The notes under the pieces were generated by a model. That model was not told the origin of the DNA. It saw nothing but the letters and a program-made list of their open reading frames with translations, and did no database searches. A program made the position numbers and the translations under genes. Below, piece after piece: positions 30,852 to 63,001 of a DNA stretch of 64,000 nucleotides. Location: positions 1 to 64,000 of the forward strand of contig JAEENL010000141.1 of NCBI GenBank assembly GCA_016283775.1, in the 5' to 3' direction. Origin of the DNA: Lachnospiraceae bacterium (GTDB taxonomy: Bacteria; Bacillota; Clostridia; Lachnospirales; Lachnospiraceae). The stretch's first letter is position 1; every line of letters starts with the position of its first letter.

Positions 30852-31404
30852 TCTTACGGTTTCCTATTCGGGACATGTGGTGCTCGACAGGCTTTCTCTG
30901 GAGACCGGGAACGGGATAACTTGCATAATGGGAGAGAGCGGATACGGAAAGACCACGCTGCTTCATACCATTGCGGGGCTTGTGAAAAAGGATTCGGGAA
31001 GCATCGAGGGCGGACCTGAACGGCCTGCCGTGATGTTTCAGGAGGACCGCCTTTTTCCGTGGCTCACGGCGCTTGAAAATATCAAGGTCGTCTGCAATGA
31101 TGAAGAAAAAGCGTTGAGGCTCCTTAAAGAGGTCGAGCTGGAAGGCCATGCGGAAAAATATCCGTCTGAGCTTTCGGGCGGAATGAAACGCAGAGTGGCG
31201 CTTGCAAGAACGCTTTCTTTTGACTCCGACATGATCATCCTCGATGAGCCGTTCAAAGGGCTTGACGAGGCCCTCACAAAAAGGATGGCGGCACTCATAA
31301 AAAGGTGCGAGGTGCCTGTGATACTTGCGACACATGCTGAGTCGGACATAGAACTTCTCGGCGCAAAAAAGATAGATATTCAAAGGTTGGGCAAAGCAGT
31401 ATGA
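30838..31404 (+). CDS. Short ABC transporter ATPase
   Basis: Walker [10 protein letters not shown], signature [15 protein letters not shown], Walker [14 protein letters not shown]; overlaps permease and NifH-like genes. Confidence 0.9.
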
Positions 31405-32162
31405 GAAAGATCGCGATATACGGAAAAGGCGGAATAGGAAAATCAACGACCACGTCAAATGTCTCCATGGCGCTCTCAAAGCTCGGGTACAAGGTCATGC
31501 AGGTGGGATGCGACCCCAAGGCGGATTCCACAGGCGCGCTTGCGGGCGGAAAAAAGATCACCACGGTGCTTGATTCGATACGTGAAAAAGGCGATGACGT
31601 CACGCTTGATGATATAGTGACGGTGGGCGACGGAGGAGTCCTCCTCGTGGAAGCGGGAGGCCCCACACCCGGCCTCGGATGCGCGGGAAGGGGCATTATC
31701 ACGGCGTTTGAAAAGCTGGAAAAGCTCGGCGCGTTTGAAAGATACGCCCCGGACATTGTGATCTATGATGTCCTCGGAGATGTGGTGTGCGGCGGATTTG
31801 CCATGCCGATAAGGGACGGATATGCCAAAAATGTGTTTATCGTGACCAGTGGCGAAAAAATGGCGATGTATGCCGCGGGAAATATCGCGATAGCTGTCGA
31901 CAACTTCAAGAGCCGCGGATATGCAAGGCTTTCAGGTATCATCCTCAACAAGCGGAATGTAGAAGATGAGGAAGAAAAGGTGAGAAAGCTCGCGGACGAC
32001 ATCGATTCGAAAGTGGTCGCGGTCATGGAGAGAAGCCCTCTGGTCCAGGACGCCGAAGCCCTTGGATCCACTGTGGTGTCGGCATTTCCCGATTCCGAAA
32101 TGGCAAAGCACTATACAGAGCTTGCCGAGATCATGCTGAAGGAGTCTGACGATGATCAGTGA
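31401..32162 (+). CDS. NifH/BchL/CfbC-superfamily nitrogenase-like reductase iron protein
   Basis: P-loop [23 protein letters not shown]; both 4Fe-4S ligand motifs (GLGCAGRG and [12 protein letters not shown]). Confidence 0.93.
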
Positions 32163-33429
32163 CAATAACGGAGGCCTCCCGAGATACTGCCATCCCTTTC
32201 ACGGTGGATGGGATGTCGCAAGGATGGCTTTGAACATACCTGAAAGCAAGATATTGTTTGTGTGCCCCGCGAGCTGCGCGAGGATAATCAGCCTGAACGC
32301 CCTGAACTACGGTTACAAGGACCGGATCTACGTGCTCTCGATCACCGAAGAGGATATTGTTGCGGGAGATTATGAGGAAAAAACGGTGCAGGCTGCGCTT
32401 GAAGTGCTTGCGACAGAAGAAGTGAGGCCGCGTGCGCTGATCATCTATGTGAGCTGTATTGACGCAATGCTCGGGAATGATCATGCTTTCCAGACAAAGC
32501 GCATAATGGAGCGCTACCCCGATGTCAACTGTTTTGTCCTCAGAATGTGCCCCATCACGCGTTACAGTTCGGATCTTCCGCTTGTCGCGCTGCAGTATGA
32601 CATGTATTCGGCGCTTCCCGAGGCCACCGTGCCCAAGGAGAAGATAGTTGCGTTCATCGGGAGCAATCTGCCCCTTTCGGACGATAACGAGCTTGTCAGG
32701 ATAATAAAAGAAAACGGATATACGCCGCTTCATATCGGGCAGAGTTCTTCATATGATGATTTTCTTAAGGTAAGAGCGTCTGCGTTGAACATCTGCTATA
32801 TGCCGTTTGCAAAGAAAGCGTGCGACATGCTTAAAGCACGCTACGGAACGGATTATGTCCCCATAGCGCTGAAGCATGACACAGATTATATCGATTCGGC
32901 AATAACGATGCTCTGCGAAAAGCTTTCCGTGCCTTTGCCTGACTTAAAAAAACTTCGTGAAGAGGCATTAAAAGAGCTGTCCGAGGCAGCGGCGATATGC
33001 GATAAAGAAGTGGTCATAGACACCACGGCAACGCTGTTTCCTGACGAACTGAGACGATTGCTTGACACGGCAGGCTTCAGGACGGGAAGGATCTACAAGG
33101 ATTCCGCCGGCGCCATGGAGCCGGATGTGGATTCGGGTCATATCACGATGCCCGGAAAACGTGAGTATGACACGGTCGACCATGACAAGATATCGATAGG
33201 TCTTGTTTCCGGGTGCTTTGAAAAAGCGGAAAAGCAGGTGCCGTTGTTTTATGATAACGGACACTGGGGATACGATGAACTGAGATTTATCGCGCGCACG
33301 ATAAAGGAAAGGCTTTTGGATGTAAGCGGAGCAACGGAGGGAATAGGACCGGAATGCCTACGGCATTCCAATGATAGTCGCTCAAAGCCGCGACGGGCTC
33401 CCCGTTGCGGAGCAACGGAGGAGATATGA
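32152..33429 (+). CDS. Nitrogenase component 1-like subunit (NifD/NifE superfamily, divergent)
   Basis: Cys pattern RYCHPFHG / CPASCAR / [12 protein letters not shown] corresponds in order and context to the three component-1 cluster ligands; [10 protein letters not shown] resembles the component-1 D-V-x-G motif. Confidence 0.85.
33326..33421 (+). repeat. 81-bp in-frame palindromic insertion with 15-bp flanking direct repeat
   Basis: GCGGAGCAACGGAGG at 33326-33340 and 33407-33421 (offset 81 bp); encloses hairpins GGAATGCC-TAC-GGCATTCC, GTCGC-TCAAAGCC-GCGAC and CCGTTGC-GGA-GCAACGG. Confidence 0.8.
33374..33402 (+). repeat. Dispersed hairpin motif copy A
   Basis: ATAGTCGCTCAAAGCCGCGACGGGCTCCC, 27/29 identical to copy B at 38341-38369. 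Confidence 0.85.
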
Positions 33430-34457
33430 AGGGATTATACAGGGTGATGCCCCCGATAGCGCCGGATTACGGCGGTGCCTGTGAGGTGCTTTACGAACTT
33501 GGAGGTCTTGTGCTGATCCATGATGCATCAGGATGTACGGTTAATTATGTTCATTTTGATGAGCCGCGTTTCGGGGAAATGCCCTCAAACGTCTTCTGCT
33601 CGGGGCTTACCGAGATAGAGGCGGTGATGGGGGATGACGAGATAGTGATCGGTAAGGCCGTAAAAGCCGCAGAGATGCTTAAGCCTGCGTTTATCGCGTT
33701 TATCGGAAGTTCTGTTCCTATGGTCGTAGGAACGGATTTTAAGGGAATAGCAAGGCTTTGTGAGGACAGGACCGGTGTGCCCTGTTTCGGTTTTGATACG
33801 AACGGACTCCGCTATTACACTGACGGCGCGTCCAAGGCTATGCTCGCTGTCATAAAGAGATTTTGTGAGAAAAGAGAAGCCGAGACCGAAGAGAAAAACG
33901 ACGCAATTAATCTGCTGGGGCTTATTCCGATGAATTACGGAACCCTTGCGGAAACAGCAAAAGTCAAAGCACTCTTTAAAAACGTCCGTTCTTCTCTCGG
34001 ATTTGACACGGTGCTCTCCGATGTCCGTAAAATGGCCGGCGCATCAAAGAATGTCGTGGTGTCCGCAGCAGGACTCGCATCGGCAGAGTATATGAAAAAG
34101 GAATACGGCATCCCGTATGAGGTCGGAGTGCCCTATACAAGGGAATTTTTTGAAGGTTCTGAGGTTTGTGACGCTTTTGCTCTTGACAAAAAAGACAGGA
34201 TACTTGTGATAGGAGAAGGTGTGGACGCCTCTTCGCTTGCCGGGGCAATCGGAGGAGCCGCTTCGCTGGACATGTTTTCAAAATATCCCGGCGCGACCTA
34301 CAGGACGAGTGACGAGGCTGAGATAGCCGAGATCGGGCAAGGGTTTGATGTGATCATAGCAGATCCCGGCCTTAAGGAGCTGTTCAAGCAAAAGACGTTT
34401 CTTTCCCGCCCAACGGTGTCGGTTTCCGGCGGTATAGATCCCAACAAAAAATTTTAA
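33426..34457 (+). CDS. Nitrogenase component 1-like subunit (second, divergent)
   Basis: GGACEVLYELGGLVLIHDASGCTVNY, SGLTEIEAVMGDDE, AFIGSSVPMVVGTDFKGIA, VPCFGFDTNG; start at ATG 33426 overlapping upstream stop (ATGA). Confidence 0.82.
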   Translation: MKGLYRVMPPIAPDYGGACEVLYELGGLVLIHDASGCTVNYVHFDEPRFGEMPSNVFCSGLTEIEAVMGDDEIVIGKAVKAAEMLKPAFIAFIGSSVPMVVGTDFKGIARLCEDRTGVPCFGFDTNGLRYYTDGASKAMLAVIKRFCEKREAETEEKNDAINLLGLIPMNYGTLAETAKVKALFKNVRSSLGFDTVLSDVRKMAGASKNVVVSAAGLASAEYMKKEYGIPYEVGVPYTREFFEGSEVCDAFALDKKDRILVIGEGVDASSLAGAIGGAASLDMFSKYPGATYRTSDEAEIAEIGQGFDVIIADPGLKELFKQKTFLSRPTVSVSGGIDPNKKF

Positions 34458-34653: not shown

Positions 34654-36183
34654 TCAGTGGTTCGGATTTACTATCTCGAGCACGTAGTATCCGTCATCGA
34701 GCGGTTCGGGCGGGGAATAGGAAAAACCGGATCCGTTGAGCCCTTCCTGCACCGCGTTTATCACCTCTTCTGCGGAAAGCTCGGAGGAGCGGTAGGTTAT
34801 GGTGATGTATTCTGCCTGTGACTGGGCCGCAGTCTTTGAGACAACATCATTTCGGGTGTGGCAGACATAGTCCTCGTAAAAATACAGCAGGTGCTTCGCC
34901 GATGTGCACGAATGCGCATAGGGCGAAGTATTTTTGTGCGTTTTTGAAAAATAGTCGTCGCTCTTTAAAAAATAGTTATAGCGGAGGCGGGCACCGGCCC
35001 CAACGGGATCGTCCCAGGTGAGGTCGATGTTGTACCATTTTCCGTCAAGCTTCACCTGGTTCCAGGCGTGGCTCGTGCTGTCGGTATAACCCTCGACTGT
35101 GATGCATTCTATGCCGTTGAGGAGCATGAAGATCCGAAACGTGTCGGAATATCCGTCGCAGACAGCGAGACCGGTCGAAAGAAGGCCGTATGGTGTGTGT
35201 GACGCGGCCGAGGCGTAGTTGTCATAGGAGATGGATGAGATGATGCTGTCGTGCACCACACGGATCTTTTGGATGTCGGATTTGGAAGAAAGCTTCCATT
35301 CATCCGAAAGCCTTGCGATCTCTGTTACCGCGGCAAGCTCCGAGCTTGAGAGCACAGACATGTCACCTGTCCTTACAGCGTAGGAATATTGCGGGTTGTA
35401 GACGACCTTTACCGAATAATAGACATAGATGCAGTTTTTGTAGACCGCGCTGTTTTCCGTGTCCACCGTGATGCTGTAGACCTCAGGGATCGCAGCGGAG
35501 AACTCGGAAGGGGCCACTACGCATGAAGCATCGGAGTAGACCATTCCGAAGGATGAGTAATCAAGGGCATTTTTGAAAAAGCCTTTAAAAGCGTCATTCC
35601 GTGATGAATAAAGGTATACGGAGTCGTAATTGAGAACGGTGTTTGTGTGGACTTCGAGGGACTTTATGAATTTTGAAGCCGCATCGCTTGCCGCTTTTCC
35701 GGTGGTCTTTGTCGGTGTGGGAGTCGGTGTTTTAGTCGGCTTTGGTGTGGGGGTGTTTGTTGCCGTGGGTTTTGGAGTGGGAGTGTTTGTTGCCGTGGGC
35801 TTTGGAGTGGGAGTGTTTGTTGCCGTGGGCTTTGGAGTGGGGGTGTTTGTTGCCGTGGGCTTGGGCGTAGGGGTATTTGTGGCAGTGGGCTCCGGAGTGG
35901 GGGTATTTGTGGCAGTGGGCTCAGGAGTTGGCGTGCTCGTGGCGGTGGGCAGCGGTGTCGGAGTGTCCGTAGCTGCAGGCGGCACTGTAGGAGCAGGTGT
36001 GTCTGTAGCTGCAGGCACCGGAGTAGGCGTATCCGCTGTATCAGGCGAGGACGTATGATCATCCACGGAAACGATATCCGGGATGACACGGCTGATATTG
36101 ACACAGCCTCCCAGCGCTGCCGATGAAAGCCCCAGCGCTGCGATAAGGATATATATGTGTTTTTTTGCGTCTTTGATCTTCAT
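34654..36183 (-). CDS. Lipoprotein with long Thr/Pro repeat linker and transglutaminase-like domain, paralog of 2874-4031
   Basis: Lipobox ALGGC; tandem [10 protein letters not shown] repeats; [20 protein letters not shown] and [22 protein letters not shown]. Confidence 0.8.
35745..35965 (-). repeat. Coding tandem repeat, about 30-bp unit (10 aa [10 protein letters not shown])
   Basis: Repeated TTTGGAGTGGGAGTGTTTGTTGCCGTGGGC units on the plus strand, degenerating at the ends. Confidence 0.85.
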
Positions 36184-37361: not shown

Positions 37362-38344
37362 CATACAAAGAAGTATACGGACAGGAAAAAACATCAGAAT
37401 TTCTGAAAAGGACCGTGGCTGAACGAAAGATCAGCCACGCATACATTTTCTGCGGGGAAAAAGGCAGCGGGAAAAAGCTGCTTTCCGGACTTTTTGCTAC
37501 GGCCATCCTCTGCGAAAAGGGAGGTCCCGAGCCTTGCGGGGAATGTATTTCGTGTAAACAGGCGGCATCAGGCAACAATCCCGACCTGAAATACATCACG
37601 CACGAAAAGCCGAACGTCATAAGTGTTGACGAGATCAGAGTCCAGCTGAATGCGGATATAGCGGTAAAACCGTATTGCCACGAAAAAAAGGTCTACATCA
37701 TCGATGAGGCCGAAAAGATGAATGAGCAGGCGCAGAACGCGATGCTGAAGACCATCGAGGAACCGCCCGGATATGCTGTGATGATCCTTCTCGTAACGAA
37801 TGAAAAAATACTGCTCCCCACCATACGTTCAAGATGCATTTTGATAAATCTGCGTCCTGTCGAAAAGAAGCATATCAAAAAGCTGCTCGTGGAGAAGCAC
37901 GGCATTTCGGACTATCTGGCCGATATCGCGGCTTCCTATGCGGACGGGATACCCGGGAGAGCGGTGGATTTTGCTTCATCGGAGGAATTTTCCGCACTGA
38001 GGTCGGATGTCATCGGTACCATGAAAAAAATGAGCAGGCTTGAGGCGTCCGAGCTGCCCGCCCTGATAAAGTCGTGGAATGACAAGCAGGAGCTGCCGGA
38101 CAGGCTGAGCCTTGTGTATATGTGGTACAGAGACGTTTTGGTGACAAAGGTGCTCGACAGTACGGACGGTGTGCTTTTCAAGGACGAGGAAGCGGCGCTG
38201 TATGAATATGCCGATCTTCTCACGTGCGAGGAGATCGTAAAAAAGCTGGATGCGGTAAATCTGCTCCGCGAAAGAATGAGATATAACGTAAATCCCGAGG
38301 CGGCGCTGATGCTGTTTTTCCTGAGCTTGAGAGACAGGAAATAG
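37358..38344 (+). CDS. holB: DNA polymerase III delta' subunit
   Basis: ISHAYIFCGEKGSGKKLLSGLFA; CGECISCKQ zinc site; VYIIDEAEKMNEQAQNAMLKTIEEPPGYAVMILL. Confidence 0.9.
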   Translation: MTYKEVYGQEKTSEFLKRTVAERKISHAYIFCGEKGSGKKLLSGLFATAILCEKGGPEPCGECISCKQAASGNNPDLKYITHEKPNVISVDEIRVQLNADIAVKPYCHEKKVYIIDEAEKMNEQAQNAMLKTIEEPPGYAVMILLVTNEKILLPTIRSRCILINLRPVEKKHIKKLLVEKHGISDYLADIAASYADGIPGRAVDFASSEEFSALRSDVIGTMKKMSRLEASELPALIKSWNDKQELPDRLSLVYMWYRDVLVTKVLDSTDGVLFKDEEAALYEYADLLTCEEIVKKLDAVNLLRERMRYNVNPEAALMLFFLSLRDRK

Positions 38345-38387
38345 TCCCTCAAAGCCGGGACGGGCTCCCGGCAATTTCATTGCCGGG
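38341..38387 (+). repeat. Dispersed hairpin motif copy B in the 5' region of the PSP1 gene
   Basis: ATAGTCCCTCAAAGCCGGGACGGGCTCCC plus second hairpin CCCGGCAA-TTTCA-TTGCCGGG, located between holB stop and SD. Confidence 0.85.
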
Positions 38388-38406
38388 CGAGAATGGAGGT
38401 TCATAA

Positions 38407-39327
38407 ATGACAAAAGTAGTTGGTGTAAGATTCAGACAGGCGGGAAAAGTATATTATTTCGACCCGCTTGAGTACAATATCGAACAGGGAAGCAATGTTA
38501 TCGTCGAGACCGCACGGGGCATTGAATTCGGACATGTTGTGATGGGAGTCAGGGAAGTGGAAGACGAAAAAGTGGTTCAGCCGCTGAAACCCATCATCCG
38601 CCCTGCGACCGAAGACGACGAGAAACAGGAAAAGGCAAACCGGGAAAAAGAAAAGAATGCGTTCAAGATCTGCCTTGAAAAGATAGCAAACCGCGGGCTT
38701 GAGATGAAGCTCATCGGCTGCGAATACACTTTTGACTCAAACAAAGTCCTGTTTTATTTTACGGCGGACGGAAGAGTCGATTTCAGAGAACTGGTAAAGG
38801 ATCTGGCGGCGGTGTTCAGGACCAGGATAGAGCTCCGTCAGGTCGGAGTGCGTGATGAGGCAAAGATCCTCGGAGGCATTGGCGTTTGCGGACGCCCGCT
38901 TTGCTGCCATTCCTATCTTTCCGATTTTGTGCCTGTTTCCATAAAGATGGCAAAGGAACAGAACCTTTCGCTCAATCCCACAAAGATCTCCGGCGTGTGC
39001 GGAAGGCTCATGTGCTGCCTGAAGAACGAAGAGGCGGCTTATGAAGAACTCAATTCCAAATTGCCTAACATCGGGGATTATGTCACCACAAACGATGGCC
39101 TTAAGGGCCAGGTACAGAGCCTTTCCGTGCTTAAGCAGAAAGTGCGCGTGCTTGTGGAGACAGGTGACGATGAGCGTGAACTTAAGGAATACGATGCCGA
39201 CCAGCTGAAGTTCAAGGCCAGAAAGCGTAAGGACTCCGGCACTTCCAAGGAGGAAGAGGCAGCGGCCAAGGAGCTGGAGCGCCTTGAAAAGCGAGAAGGC
39301 GGCAAATCCAAGCTCGGAGAGGAATAA
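38407..39327 (+). CDS. PSP1 domain protein (YaaT/RicT family)
   Basis: VRFRQAGKVYYFDPLEYNIEQGSNVIVETARGIEFGHV; GGIGVCGRPLCCHSYLSDF; KISGVCGRLMCCLKNE. Confidence 0.93.
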   Translation: MTKVVGVRFRQAGKVYYFDPLEYNIEQGSNVIVETARGIEFGHVVMGVREVEDEKVVQPLKPIIRPATEDDEKQEKANREKEKNAFKICLEKIANRGLEMKLIGCEYTFDSNKVLFYFTADGRVDFRELVKDLAAVFRTRIELRQVGVRDEAKILGGIGVCGRPLCCHSYLSDFVPVSIKMAKEQNLSLNPTKISGVCGRLMCCLKNEEAAYEELNSKLPNIGDYVTTNDGLKGQVQSLSVLKQKVRVLVETGDDERELKEYDADQLKFKARKRKDSGTSKEEEAAAKELERLEKREGGKSKLGEE

Positions 39328-51499: not shown

Positions 51500-52573
51500 C
51501 TATCTTTGCAAAAGTGCATATTCCGCAAATCTTGGAAGTTTCAGTTTTAGGTATCCGTATTCTTTTCCGTCGACGATACCTTTGTCTATAAGGCGTTCAC
51601 GGTAAACGCTGAATTTTCCTGATTCCATTTCAAGTATTTCACGGATTTCGGAAACCTTGCCATCTACTGTGCTTGCCAAAGCGGAGACAACTTTACGTTC
51701 GGTTGGGGCAAGTTCAGACCAGATCTTATCATAAGCAAATTCAGCCAGATATTGGTCAAATTCAGACAGGAGGTCTTTTACTTCGACTTTGTTTTGTTTA
51801 CACAGAGCGTTCCAATATATATACCCGACGACCTGAAATGCAAAAGAGTAGCCTTTGGTGAGCCGGGCCAGTTCTTCGGCGGTTTCTGCGTCTACGCCAA
51901 GAACTCTTCCATACGTGTTTATTATTGATGAAATGTTCAGCGGCTCGAGTTCATGCTCTTTGGCACGATATAAGAATGTAAGGGATTTGTCGTTTTTGAT
52001 GGCTTTAATGTTTTCCTTTAACCCTGTCATAATGACATAGAGTTCATATCCTGCGCGCGCGTAGGCTGAGAGTGCATGAGAAAAACTTCCGATCTGACTG
52101 TTGTAGGTCACTTCGTCTATTGTGACTAGGACCCTTTTTTTGAATTTACCCAGTGCTTTCAGCATCATATCTACGGCGTCATATTCGTTTGAAGCCACAA
52201 AGTCCGGTTTTTTTACCGAAAGATTAATGCCAAGAATACTTATGTCCAGCTTGGCTTCAATAAATAACGCCCTAAGTCCCGGCTGTCTGCAGAGACCTCT
52301 TGCCAAAGCCTCGAGTATGTTTGCGGTTGGGTCGGGGATATCTACGGTTATCCAGTCTTTCTTTTCACGTATTATGTTGGATATTTCCGCCATAAGCACG
52401 GATTTTCCGGCTCCACGGACACCGGTCAGAAAATGGCACCTGAAAGTCGGAATATCTCGGTCAAGATCTCCTATAATATCGTTAATAAGAGCTTTCCGGG
52501 TGATGTATTGAGGCGGAATATAACTAAACTGCAGTGTGAACGGGTTTTCTGAGGCTAAGATATTTTTATTCAT
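51500..52573 (-). CDS. AAA+ (Orc1/Cdc6-like, archaeal-type ATPase) with C-terminal winged helix
   Basis: FLTGVRGAGKSVLMAEI Walker A; RVLVTIDEVTYN Walker B; C-terminal wHTH-like VSEIREILEMESGKFSVYRERLIDKGIV. Confidence 0.78.
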   Translation of the reverse strand: MNKNILASENPFTLQFSYIPPQYITRKALINDIIGDLDRDIPTFRCHFLTGVRGAGKSVLMAEISNIIREKKDWITVDIPDPTANILEALARGLCRQPGLRALFIEAKLDISILGINLSVKKPDFVASNEYDAVDMMLKALGKFKKRVLVTIDEVTYNSQIGSFSHALSAYARAGYELYVIMTGLKENIKAIKNDKSLTFLYRAKEHELEPLNISSIINTYGRVLGVDAETAEELARLTKGYSFAFQVVGYIYWNALCKQNKVEVKDLLSEFDQYLAEFAYDKIWSELAPTERKVVSALASTVDGKVSEIREILEMESGKFSVYRERLIDKGIVDGKEYGYLKLKLPRFAEYALLQR

Positions 52574-52591
52574 TTCTTTACTCCCGATACA

Positions 52592-52672
52592 TTTTGTTAT
52601 AACTTGTTATAGGTTTACAATTTTGTTATAACTTGTTATAAGTTCAAAATTATGTTATAACTTGTTATAGGT
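52592..52672 (-). promoter_or_regulatory. Three 29-bp-spaced palindromic operator/iteron repeats
   Basis: TGTTATAACTTGTTATA at 52595-52611, 52624-52640, 52653-52669; each is TTATAAC-TT-GTTATA. Confidence 0.8.
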
Positions 52673-52791
52673 TTTGTCAAGAAGTAAAGAAGTATGTATT
52701 GTCACAAGTATGAAAAATGATATAATTTGAGCTGGAATTGAATCGCGTTAACTGCGTGATTAAATGAAAAAATAGGGACGGTAAACAGAAA

Positions 52792-57588: not shown

Positions 57589-59214
57589 ATGGCAATGATC
57601 GTTCAACACAACTTAAAGGCAATGAATACCAACAGACAGCTTGGTATTTCGACAAACGCTCTTTCCAAATCAACCGAGAAGCTTTCATCCGGTTACAGAA
57701 TCAACAGGGCAGCAGATGACGCAGCAGGTTTGGCAATATCTGAAAAGATGAGAAGCCAGATCAGAGGCCTCAATCAGGCATCTTCGAACTCTCAGGATGG
57801 TATCTCCATGATCCAGACTGCTGAGGGTGCTCTTCAGGAATCCCACAGCATTTTACAGAGAATGAGAGAACTTGCTGTTCAGGCAGCAAACGGAACTGAG
57901 ACTGACGAAGACCGTCAGAACCTTCAGGATGAGATCACACAGCTTCAGTCTGAACTTGATCGTATCTCTACAGATACAGAGTTCAATACCATGAAGCTCC
58001 TTGACGGATCTCTTGATGGTAGTGGCGCTGTTAGCAGTGCTGGTCCTAAGTTTGGCGTTTACGATGCTAAGTTGCAGGGCTTTGTAACATCTGATACTGT
58101 AGGTGTTAGTATAACAACTAATACCACCGCAACAGAGGGTGGCGAGTCTGCGATTTGGAGCAATGATGGAAAAACTCTTACCATCAATCTCCATAACAAC
58201 ACAACCTATACCGAAGCTGAATTAGATAAGCTCATTAAGGAAGCTAAACAGGAAGATAGTACTGCTGCCAATAGGCCTGCACAGATTGAACTTAATCTTA
58301 ACAACGGTACCTATACAGCTACTGCAGCAAACGCTGCTAGCGGAGCTACTACTGCAACAGGTGTTAAAGCTAAGATTGAAAATGAGACACTTACTGCTGC
58401 AGCTGCAGGTAAGTTTATCGGCGCTAACAAGATTTCCATCACGGCAAATAAGTATGGTGCGGATAACAATATTACCATTAAGATCTTCTTCGATAAAGAA
58501 GAAGGAGACGAGAAGTTCGAATTAAAGACAGCTGCTACTTATGCTACAACGGGTGCGCTTTCTGATAAGGGACAGTATGAACTTCATCTTGCAACAGGTG
58601 TAGAGTACACCGCTGGTGATATTGAAAAGCTTTTCGCTACTCAGGGATTTTCGGCAAGCGTTACTCTTTCCGGACCTAATCCTGATGAGCCCAATACTCT
58701 GTTCGTTACACAGAAAGAGGCTACAGGTCAGGCAATCACATTAGCAAACGGTGCCGGTCTTGGCGATACTGATGCTTATCTTGGACAGAAGAACTATGAT
58801 GTTCAGTCCGGTGGTGAAGGTGTTACCCTTCAGGTTGGCGCTAACTATGGTCAGACGATATCTTTTGGTATCGGCGATATGGGTGCTAAGTCTCTCGGCG
58901 TTGATGGAACAAAGGTTAACGTTGCAACTCAGACCGGAGCTCAGAATGCACTTGACAAGATTGATGGAGCTATTTCGACAGTTTCGAAGCAGCGTTCACT
59001 TCTCGGTGCTATTCAGAACAGACTTGAGCATACGATAGCTAACTTGGATAACACAGCTGAGAACTTACAGTCTGCTGAGTCTGCTATCCGTGACGTTGAT
59101 ATGGCTGATGAGATGGTTCAGTATTCTAAGAATAACATCATCCAGCAGGCAGCTACATCGATGCTCGCTCAGGCTAACCAGTCGAACCAGGGCGTTCTGT
59201 CACTTTTAGGCTAA
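57589..59214 (+). CDS. Flagellin 1
   Basis: [60 protein letters not shown]-terminal [36 protein letters not shown]. Confidence 0.97.
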
Positions 59215-61372: not shown

Positions 61373-63001
61373 ATGGCAATGATAGTTCAGCACAACATCG
61401 CATCGATCAACACTAACAGACAGTTAGGAATCTCTACAACCAATCTTTCTAAGAACACAGAAAAACTTTCATCCGGTTACAGAATCAACCGCGCAGCCGA
61501 TGACGCCGCCGGCCTCGCTATTTCAGAAAAGATGAGAAGCCAGATCAGAGGTCTTGGCCGTGCCTCTGACAATGCAAGCGACGGTATTTCAATGATACAG
61601 ACAGCTGAAGGCGCGCTCAACGAGTCTCACTCCATCTTACAGAGAATGAGAGAGCTCGCAGTACAGGCAGCCAACGGTACTGAGACAGACTCTGACAGAA
61701 GCAACCTTCAGGATGAGATCGAGCAGCTCCAGGAAGAGCTCGACAGAATCTCCACCGATACAGAATTCAACACAATGCCTCTTCTTGACGGATCACTTTC
61801 AGCAGCTTCCGGTAATGTTAGTTCTGCAGGTCCCAAGTTCGGTATCTACGACACAAAATTAAAGGGATTTGTTACAGCAAGTGTTGAAAATGTTGGATTT
61901 TTAACGAATACATCTGCAGTTGCCGGATCGGAATCCGCTATATGGGATAATGCCGGAAAGATATTAACTCTTAATCTTGCAGATAACACTACATATACAC
62001 AGACACAGATAGACAATCTTATTAAGAATGCCAAGCAGGAAGATTCGTCAGCGACCAATGAGCCCGCTGATATTACCGTTCATCTTACATTTGGCTCTTA
62101 CACAGCGACCGCAAGTAATCTTACACCCGGAACAACAGTTACAGAAAAGGGCGTTAAAGCTGCAGTTGCAGCCACTACGATTACATCAAGTGGATATGTC
62201 GGAGCTAATGAGATAGCATTTACCGCGAAGAAATATGGCGCGGATATGAACTTATCAATATCCATAGCATTTGACGCCAAAGAGGGACAGGAAGAATTCG
62301 AGCAGACTGTTGCTCCGGTATATGATTCTGATGGAAAGATCACTACTGGTTCAGAAGGCAGTTGGACACTTCACCTTCGCTCAGGAAAAGAATATACCGA
62401 AGCAGATCTTGAGTCGATAATTGCTAAGGCCGGTGTTCCGCTTGAAGTAGAATTGTCCGGAGACGACCCTGATGAACCCAATACATTGTTTGTTACCACA
62501 AACTTTACAGTGGCACTCAATAGAATGACTGGCGGCGCGGGTTTAGGCGATGATGACGCATATCTCGGACAGCCCAATTACAGCGTAGCTTCCGGTGGTG
62601 GCGGAGTTATCCTTCAGGTTGGTGCTAACGAAGGCCAGACAATGAGCTTCTCCATTGACGATATGTCGGCACAGGCTCTTGGCGTAAACGCAGGAAACGT
62701 GGATCTTTCCACACAGTCCGGCGCATCAAAATCCATCGGCAACATCGACGAAGCTATCGGAAAAGTTTCCAAGCAGAGAGCCCTTCTCGGTGCCGTTCAG
62801 AACAGACTTGAGCACACCATTGCAAACCTTGACAACACCGCTGAGAACATGCAGGCAGCCGAGTCCACCATCCGTGACGTAGATATGGCCGAGGAGATGG
62901 TTCAATACTCCAAGAACAACATCCTCCAGCAGGCAGGTCAGTCCATGCTCGCTCAGGCAAACCAGTCCACACAGGGCGTTCTTTCGCTCCTTCAGGGCTG
63001 A
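61373..63001 (+). CDS. Flagellin 2
   Basis: [66 protein letters not shown]-terminal [36 protein letters not shown]. Confidence 0.97.
   Translation: MAMIVQHNIASINTNRQLGISTTNLSKNTEKLSSGYRINRAADDAAGLAISEKMRSQIRGLGRASDNASDGISMIQTAEGALNESHSILQRMRELAVQAANGTETDSDRSNLQDEIEQLQEELDRISTDTEFNTMPLLDGSLSAASGNVSSAGPKFGIYDTKLKGFVTASVENVGFLTNTSAVAGSESAIWDNAGKILTLNLADNTTYTQTQIDNLIKNAKQEDSSATNEPADITVHLTFGSYTATASNLTPGTTVTEKGVKAAVAATTITSSGYVGANEIAFTAKKYGADMNLSISIAFDAKEGQEEFEQTVAPVYDSDGKITTGSEGSWTLHLRSGKEYTEADLESIIAKAGVPLEVELSGDDPDEPNTLFVTTNFTVALNRMTGGAGLGDDDAYLGQPNYSVASGGGGVILQVGANEGQTMSFSIDDMSAQALGVNAGNVDLSTQSGASKSIGNIDEAIGKVSKQRALLGAVQNRLEHTIANLDNTAENMQAAESTIRDVDMAEEMVQYSKNNILQQAGQSMLAQANQSTQGVLSLLQG

Follow-up and report, generated by a model that had tools for sequence, protein, structure and literature searches.

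The locus examined here raises the question of what a short, structured DNA motif represents when two copies of it, A and B, are each found directly upstream of the Shine-Dalgarno (SD) sequence of a gene within the same 64-kb window (the whole 64,000-nucleotide stretch of Lachnospiraceae DNA that was analysed). A first-pass annotation had proposed an intercistronic translation-control or RNA-processing element. The two copies have a common 22-nt core with compensatory changes in its stem (GTCGC/GCGAC versus GTCCC/GGGAC), and the 20-nt core pattern was matched twice in the window, as compared with no matches in 100 shuffles. Searches of Rfam 15 returned no match at gathering score in the window except for one tRNA, and at a relaxed E-value five loci yielded nothing over the element. 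A GA-cis RNA (RF02987) scoring well above gathering level was recorded near one element copy in another genome, the MAG RGIG2871 (L021:908-991, minus strand).

Copy B is located on the forward strand between holB (PF13177, 9e-54) and a PSP1 gene (PF04468, 2.5e-37), both assigned by Pfam. Its core (38344-38366) comprises the P2 stem GTCCC/GGGAC, the 5' arm of which spans 38344-38348, the intervening loop TCAAAGCC and a terminal GGGCT; it is followed by hairpin P3, CCCGGCAA-TTTCA-TTGCCGGG (38367-38387), and then by a segment (38388-38406) made up of CGAGA, ATGGAGG with the SD at 38395-38399, and the spacer to the PSP1 ATG at 38407. As originally described, the copy begins in the holB stop codon, the first base of the stem being the last base of TAG (38342-38344), and 7 nt separate the end of P3 from the GGAGG of the PSP1 gene. 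In the closest relatives no element was present upstream of the PSP1 gene; in a congener (G005) the holB stop codon is followed by 11 nt and then by ATGGAGG, and the element of the present genome occupies exactly that place. Since ATGGAGG is already there in the empty site, copy B corresponds to an insertion or replacement where an SD already served PSP1.

Copy A (33377-33421, forward strand) is positioned 5' of the second of two nitrogenase component 1-like genes, both of which were confirmed by Pfam (Oxidored_nitro, PF00148), and abuts the GGAGG of that gene as initially reported. Hairpin P1, GGAATGCC-TAC-GGCATTCC (33351-33369), is followed by the core GTCGC-TCAAAGCC-GCGAC-GGGCT (33377-33399) and by P3, CCGTTGC-GGA-GCAACGG (33402-33418), the extended 3' arm of which overlaps the downstream SD GGAGG and is predicted by folding to pair with its GGAG. 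A 15-bp direct repeat, GCGGAGCAACGGAGG, is present on the left (33326-33340) and again 81 bp away on the right (33407-33421), where it overlaps both P3 and the SD. The copy is not strictly intercistronic as had been supposed: the upstream nitrogenase component 1-like gene (32152-33429, forward strand) reads through it, ending in LLDVSGATE plus approximately 27 residues plus EI and a stop codon, and overlaps the next start (ATGA). Of the copies in its own genome, it alone is in frame within an identified protein gene, where it occupies the C-terminus only. In the surrounding region (31401-34457 of the window), ABC transporter genes are immediately followed by a NifH-like gene and the nitrogenase component 1-like pair, and the second nitrogenase-like subunit has relatives in some congeners.

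Extension of the search to other genomes established the element as a sporadic, multicopy, dispersed repeat. The exact core pattern occurred at four places in its own genome (G000) and in none of 60 relatives, and, among the matches listed, at least dozens of times in GTDB MAGs of rumen Lachnospiraceae and other Clostridia. A covariance model gave 21 matches in the same genome (18 with E < 1e-4 and three weak) and from 1 to 41 in each of 11 MAGs of rumen or gut origin; in a survey of the family, copies were carried by 10 of 299 sampled Lachnospiraceae genomes, its own included, a figure that is a lower bound given the strict filters applied, the remaining 289 having none. As these genomes are mostly MAGs, assembly artefacts are possible at single loci. 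The family is apparently recent in rumen and gut Clostridia. A phage origin was rejected, none of 27 pattern matches in viral contigs having a paired P2 stem, and a search of PLSDB with a 28-aa peptide gave no match. No paper on the DNA core or the peptides was found in the literature, nor any describing the repeat in Lachnospiraceae.

Alignment of the copies defined a unit of approximately 81 bp (27 codons) consisting of a short lead, hairpin P1, an invariant core with the consensus GTCSC-TCAAAGCC-GSGAC-N-GGCT, and hairpin P3. P1 is present in most copies, copy A included, but absent from copy B, which is shorter than the full unit. The second hairpin, previously described as a sequence-unrelated addition, is in fact P3, a regular and covarying part of the element. 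Across 119 copies, standard pairs accounted for 98.2% of pair cells and the covariation score was 0.566, versus 0.154 after shuffling and no more than 0.108 with slid partners; the alignment had been fitted to the model, which favours pair counts, but the slid controls were nonetheless far lower. Double-sided changes were recorded at all eight pairs of P1 and of P3, and at three of the five pairs of P2. G-U combinations made up only 1.2% of pair cells, a scarcity which suggests that DNA rather than RNA is the level at which complementarity, and hence palindromy, would be maintained.

The invariance of the core is in part a product of the search pattern in the pattern-found set, but persists in the model-based set. 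Pairing between AGCC and GGCT was likewise invariant in all 119 copies. An H-type pseudoknot formed by these two segments was considered, but the inter-stem linker, at 0-1 nt, would probably be too short to let a classical pseudoknot span P2. Long variants of 119-124 nt, with an additional hairpin within the loop of P2, were encountered both in RGIG2871, hereafter G063 (L282:2091-2209 and L283:5562-5680), and in a second MAG, RUG12564 or G062 (L299:5038-5161, L306:2021-2143 and L292), the extra sequence differing between the two genomes. In G062, many copies (L289-L298) are situated within a larger repeat with the further motifs CACGCTTGCGCTAAG ... CGCAGCGGACGCTAAGCTCG ... CTCGCTAAGCGCCGGC, which may be a second repeat family of composite type.

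The placement of all genomic copies with respect to SDs and strand, on which the regulatory proposal had been made to depend, proved to be non-random, with enrichment in the sense orientation only. Eight of 20 usable copies in the element's own genome are in sense orientation within the 30 nt that precede an SD-led ATG, as compared with none in antisense and with 1.5% of random positions (binomial P ~3e-10); over four genomes the corresponding counts were 19 of 92 in sense, against approximately 2.5% expected, and two of 92 in antisense. Because the controls were sampled across the whole sequence rather than within intergenic DNA alone, the enrichment partly reflects intergenic placement, a bias that leaves the contrast between sense and antisense (19 versus 2) unaffected. 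The remaining copies in the same genome are antisense, tandem, in convergent gaps or further from starts. The genes downstream of the other copies, named by eye, include an asparagine-synthase-like gene, a LacI-type regulator, a ROK-type kinase, a nucleotidyltransferase, a PlsC-like gene and hisG. They have no common function, and the connection with Fe-S biology suspected for the genes following copies A and B is a coincidence.

The left flanks of the copies often repeat part of the 3' arm of P3 with a period of about 81, flank repeat scores of 9 or more being recorded for six of 21 copies in the element's own genome versus three of 104 controls. Period-81 direct repeats were seen at copy A, C95, CobJ (vide infra) and others; they vary from approximately 4 to 19 nt, lie about 81 bp apart at some copies, and may themselves belong to the element. 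In CobJ the repeat GGGGACAGAT is present on both sides of the insert, and its left member represents native coding sequence, as SKGTDVEVSVIPG fits the congener without gaps. Taken with the flank repeats, this suggests that targets resemble the 3' end of the element, as SD sequences do. The more extreme proposition that each insertion copies its target into P3 is ruled out for G063, in which unrelated host genes carry almost the same P3.

Copies inside genes were examined in G063 (identical to G093), in which about ten lie deep within ORFs, all of them in frame and in sense orientation. In the consensus unit one of the three sense frames is free of stop codons, and all internal sense copies of this genome use that frame. 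Two of the three antisense frames are also open, so that stop codons alone do not explain the lack of clear antisense internal copies, a comparison based on small numbers. The host proteins comprise HydF (TIGR03918, 1e-149), CobJ (TIGR01466, 3e-88) and YlqF, together with an AMP-forming ligase with two tandem units, a transglutaminase-like lipoprotein and acyltransferases. Empty sites for two of these were located in the congener G340. The HydF of G340 is 400 aa long, versus 427 aa in G063, the difference being a single 27-residue gap between the NKxD and SA motifs, at which the DNA alignment is too diverged for an exact breakpoint; in CobJ, 27 residues are missing between a helix and the IPG strand. 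The stretch SPDGEVLKSLKAGTGSPD is predicted peptide sequence in HydF or CobJ. Judged from these translated genes, 27 extra amino acids would be built into conserved proteins of this one relative. An AlphaFold model of CobJ (low depth, mean pLDDT 70.9) placed the insert (residues 100-127) between a helix and a strand as the longest segment below pLDDT 50, and the predicted insertion site looks like a loop.

These various lines of evidence are best accommodated, with a probability of roughly 0.87, if copies A and B belong to a palindromic mobile element, dispersed and non-autonomous, of the RPE-like, protein-coding MITE kind. Mobility is deduced from the high copy number, sporadic distribution, covarying hairpins and tandem 81-bp units, from the direct repeats about 81 bp apart, and from the two empty sites and the in-frame 27-residue insertions. 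Movement might take place as folded single-stranded DNA or RNA by means of a putative enzyme, with entry at sites resembling the element's own 3' end, namely GGAGG, or GGNGCAG followed by an AAGGAG-like sequence. Such likeness would direct landings into SD sequences in a single orientation, and insertions would survive where SD and start are left intact or the frame stays open. We therefore read the start-proximal placement as a target preference for purine-rich, SD-like DNA; any effect on translation may be a secondary by-product that differs between copies. No transposase or recombinase linked to the element was found, and no terminal inverted repeat was seen.

The proposal of control at the level of translation, in which P3 masks the downstream SD and the core, or a ligand or protein bound to it, toggles the masking, draws on the sense-only enrichment upstream of SD-led starts, on the presence of an invariant core beside covarying stems, and on the predicted pairing of the extended P3 arm with the SD of copy A. 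In the predicted fold of copy B, however, the SD lies 7 nt outside P3 and is mostly unpaired; because P3 engages the SD in one copy and leaves it free in the other, a regulatory logic common to both is, on these models, unlikely. Many copies are, moreover, antisense, in convergent gaps or inside genes, the downstream genes lack a common function, and the PSP1 gene of congeners is not preceded by the element. Its absence upstream of PSP1 in the closest relatives and from 289 of 299 sampled genomes indicates that it is not a conserved regulator. Of the first-pass proposal, the non-random placement and the pairing of P3 with the SD in copy A stand, whereas the notion of a dedicated element is not supported, and translation control as such is an improbable explanation. 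A somewhat better, though still doubtful, case can be made for domestication, whereby the element spread as a MITE and a start-proximal sublineage, with GGAGG in P3, is now kept as translation initiation modules: the proportion of start-proximal copies far exceeds the 1.5% expected, and in several copies of the element's own genome P3 itself ends in GGAGG with ATG directly after. The same pattern would nevertheless result from insertion into SDs with target duplication; P3 sequences differ, and there is no cross-species conservation to indicate selection.

Mobilisation as a REP element by a RAYT/Y1 transposase would account for the hairpins and high copy number that the repeat shares with REP/BIME systems, for the shortness of those hairpins and for the single-strand-like folds, and full-length Y1 transposases are encoded in two carriers (G000 and G334). 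This explanation is nonetheless very improbable: Y1 (PF01797) is missing from five of nine carriers (G221, G061, G069, G066 and G302), the near-complete G221 having 27 copies without any Y1 transposase match, and REPs are described as extragenic repeats of 20-40 bp that bear GTAG or CGTC tags (PMC3733652), whereas the present element is 81 bp long and often intragenic. Equally improbable is the removal of the inserts from the product by a splicing RNA or a ribosome-bypass (byp-like) element. Strong folds, the precise 27-codon size and the location in conserved genes would be in keeping with it, but removal would not require an open frame, and the internal copies nevertheless use the one sense frame that has no stops; moreover, the CobJ site looks in the model like a loop.

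The mobile-element reading relates the repeat most closely to the RPEs of Rickettsia described by Ogata, Claverie and colleagues, short palindromes with an open frame that are found between and inside genes, one insert-bearing enzyme having been shown to be active (PMC2229807, PMC10969869, PMC3767692). As with RPEs, a short palindrome with compensatory changes is present in many dispersed copies, both intergenic and in frame in unrelated conserved protein genes, with an open frame and an insert in a likely exposed loop. Unlike RPEs proper, which are 105-146 bp long with one long stem-loop and terminal inverted repeats and inhabit Rickettsia and Wolbachia, it is 81 bp long with three hairpins and an invariant core, and occurs sporadically in gut Clostridia, with empty sites within a genus and orientation-specific SD enrichment. 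It is a new family of the RPE-like kind, set apart from RPEs by comparison of descriptions. The non-autonomous MITEs ERIC/RU-1, YPAL/RU-2, RU-3 and NEMIS-107, which have open frames, are intergenic and are sometimes fused in frame (PMC2229807, Table 1), share its non-autonomy and mixed placement; again by description, it differs from them in its shorter length and its different phylum, and in that no terminal inverted repeat was seen. PARCELs, coding palindromes of about 25 residues with a punctate distribution in tandem arrays in ORFs of unknown function (PMC2996958), are similar in coding length and distribution, but the element occurs mostly as single dispersed copies, several of them in housekeeping genes.

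The best-documented cases of selfish palindromes invading working genes in frame are those of the obligate intracellular Rickettsia and Wolbachia, and a 2024 review regarded a similar mechanism in other prokaryotes as merely 'conceivable' (PMC10969869). With empty sites available inside one genus, target choice, mechanism and protein cost become testable. A motif with the appearance of a riboregulator is at the same time explained, which counsels caution when a dispersed structured repeat next to an SD is taken for a riboswitch. It may be speculated, with some reserve, that gut Clostridia harbour minimal mobile elements of a new class, typified by the present repeat. These would move through a folded single-stranded intermediate, select targets by likeness to their own 3' end (SDs and, on the coding strand, Lys/Glu codons in frame), rebuild their hairpin arms with every jump so as to fit the target, and thereby add translation-leader hairpins, as well as 27-residue segments in host proteins.

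Other repeats were noted in the window. A 30-bp tandem repeat (10 codons; 35684-35983) lies inside a minus-strand transglutaminase-like ORF (34654-36183), and three 29-bp direct repeats, ATTTTGTTATAACTTGTTATA (52591-52677), adjoin a minus-strand ORF (51500-52573) and look like operator or iteron-like sites. A pair of paralogous ORFs of approximately 541 aa (57589-59214 and 61373-63001) exhibited 68-78% DNA identity over long stretches.
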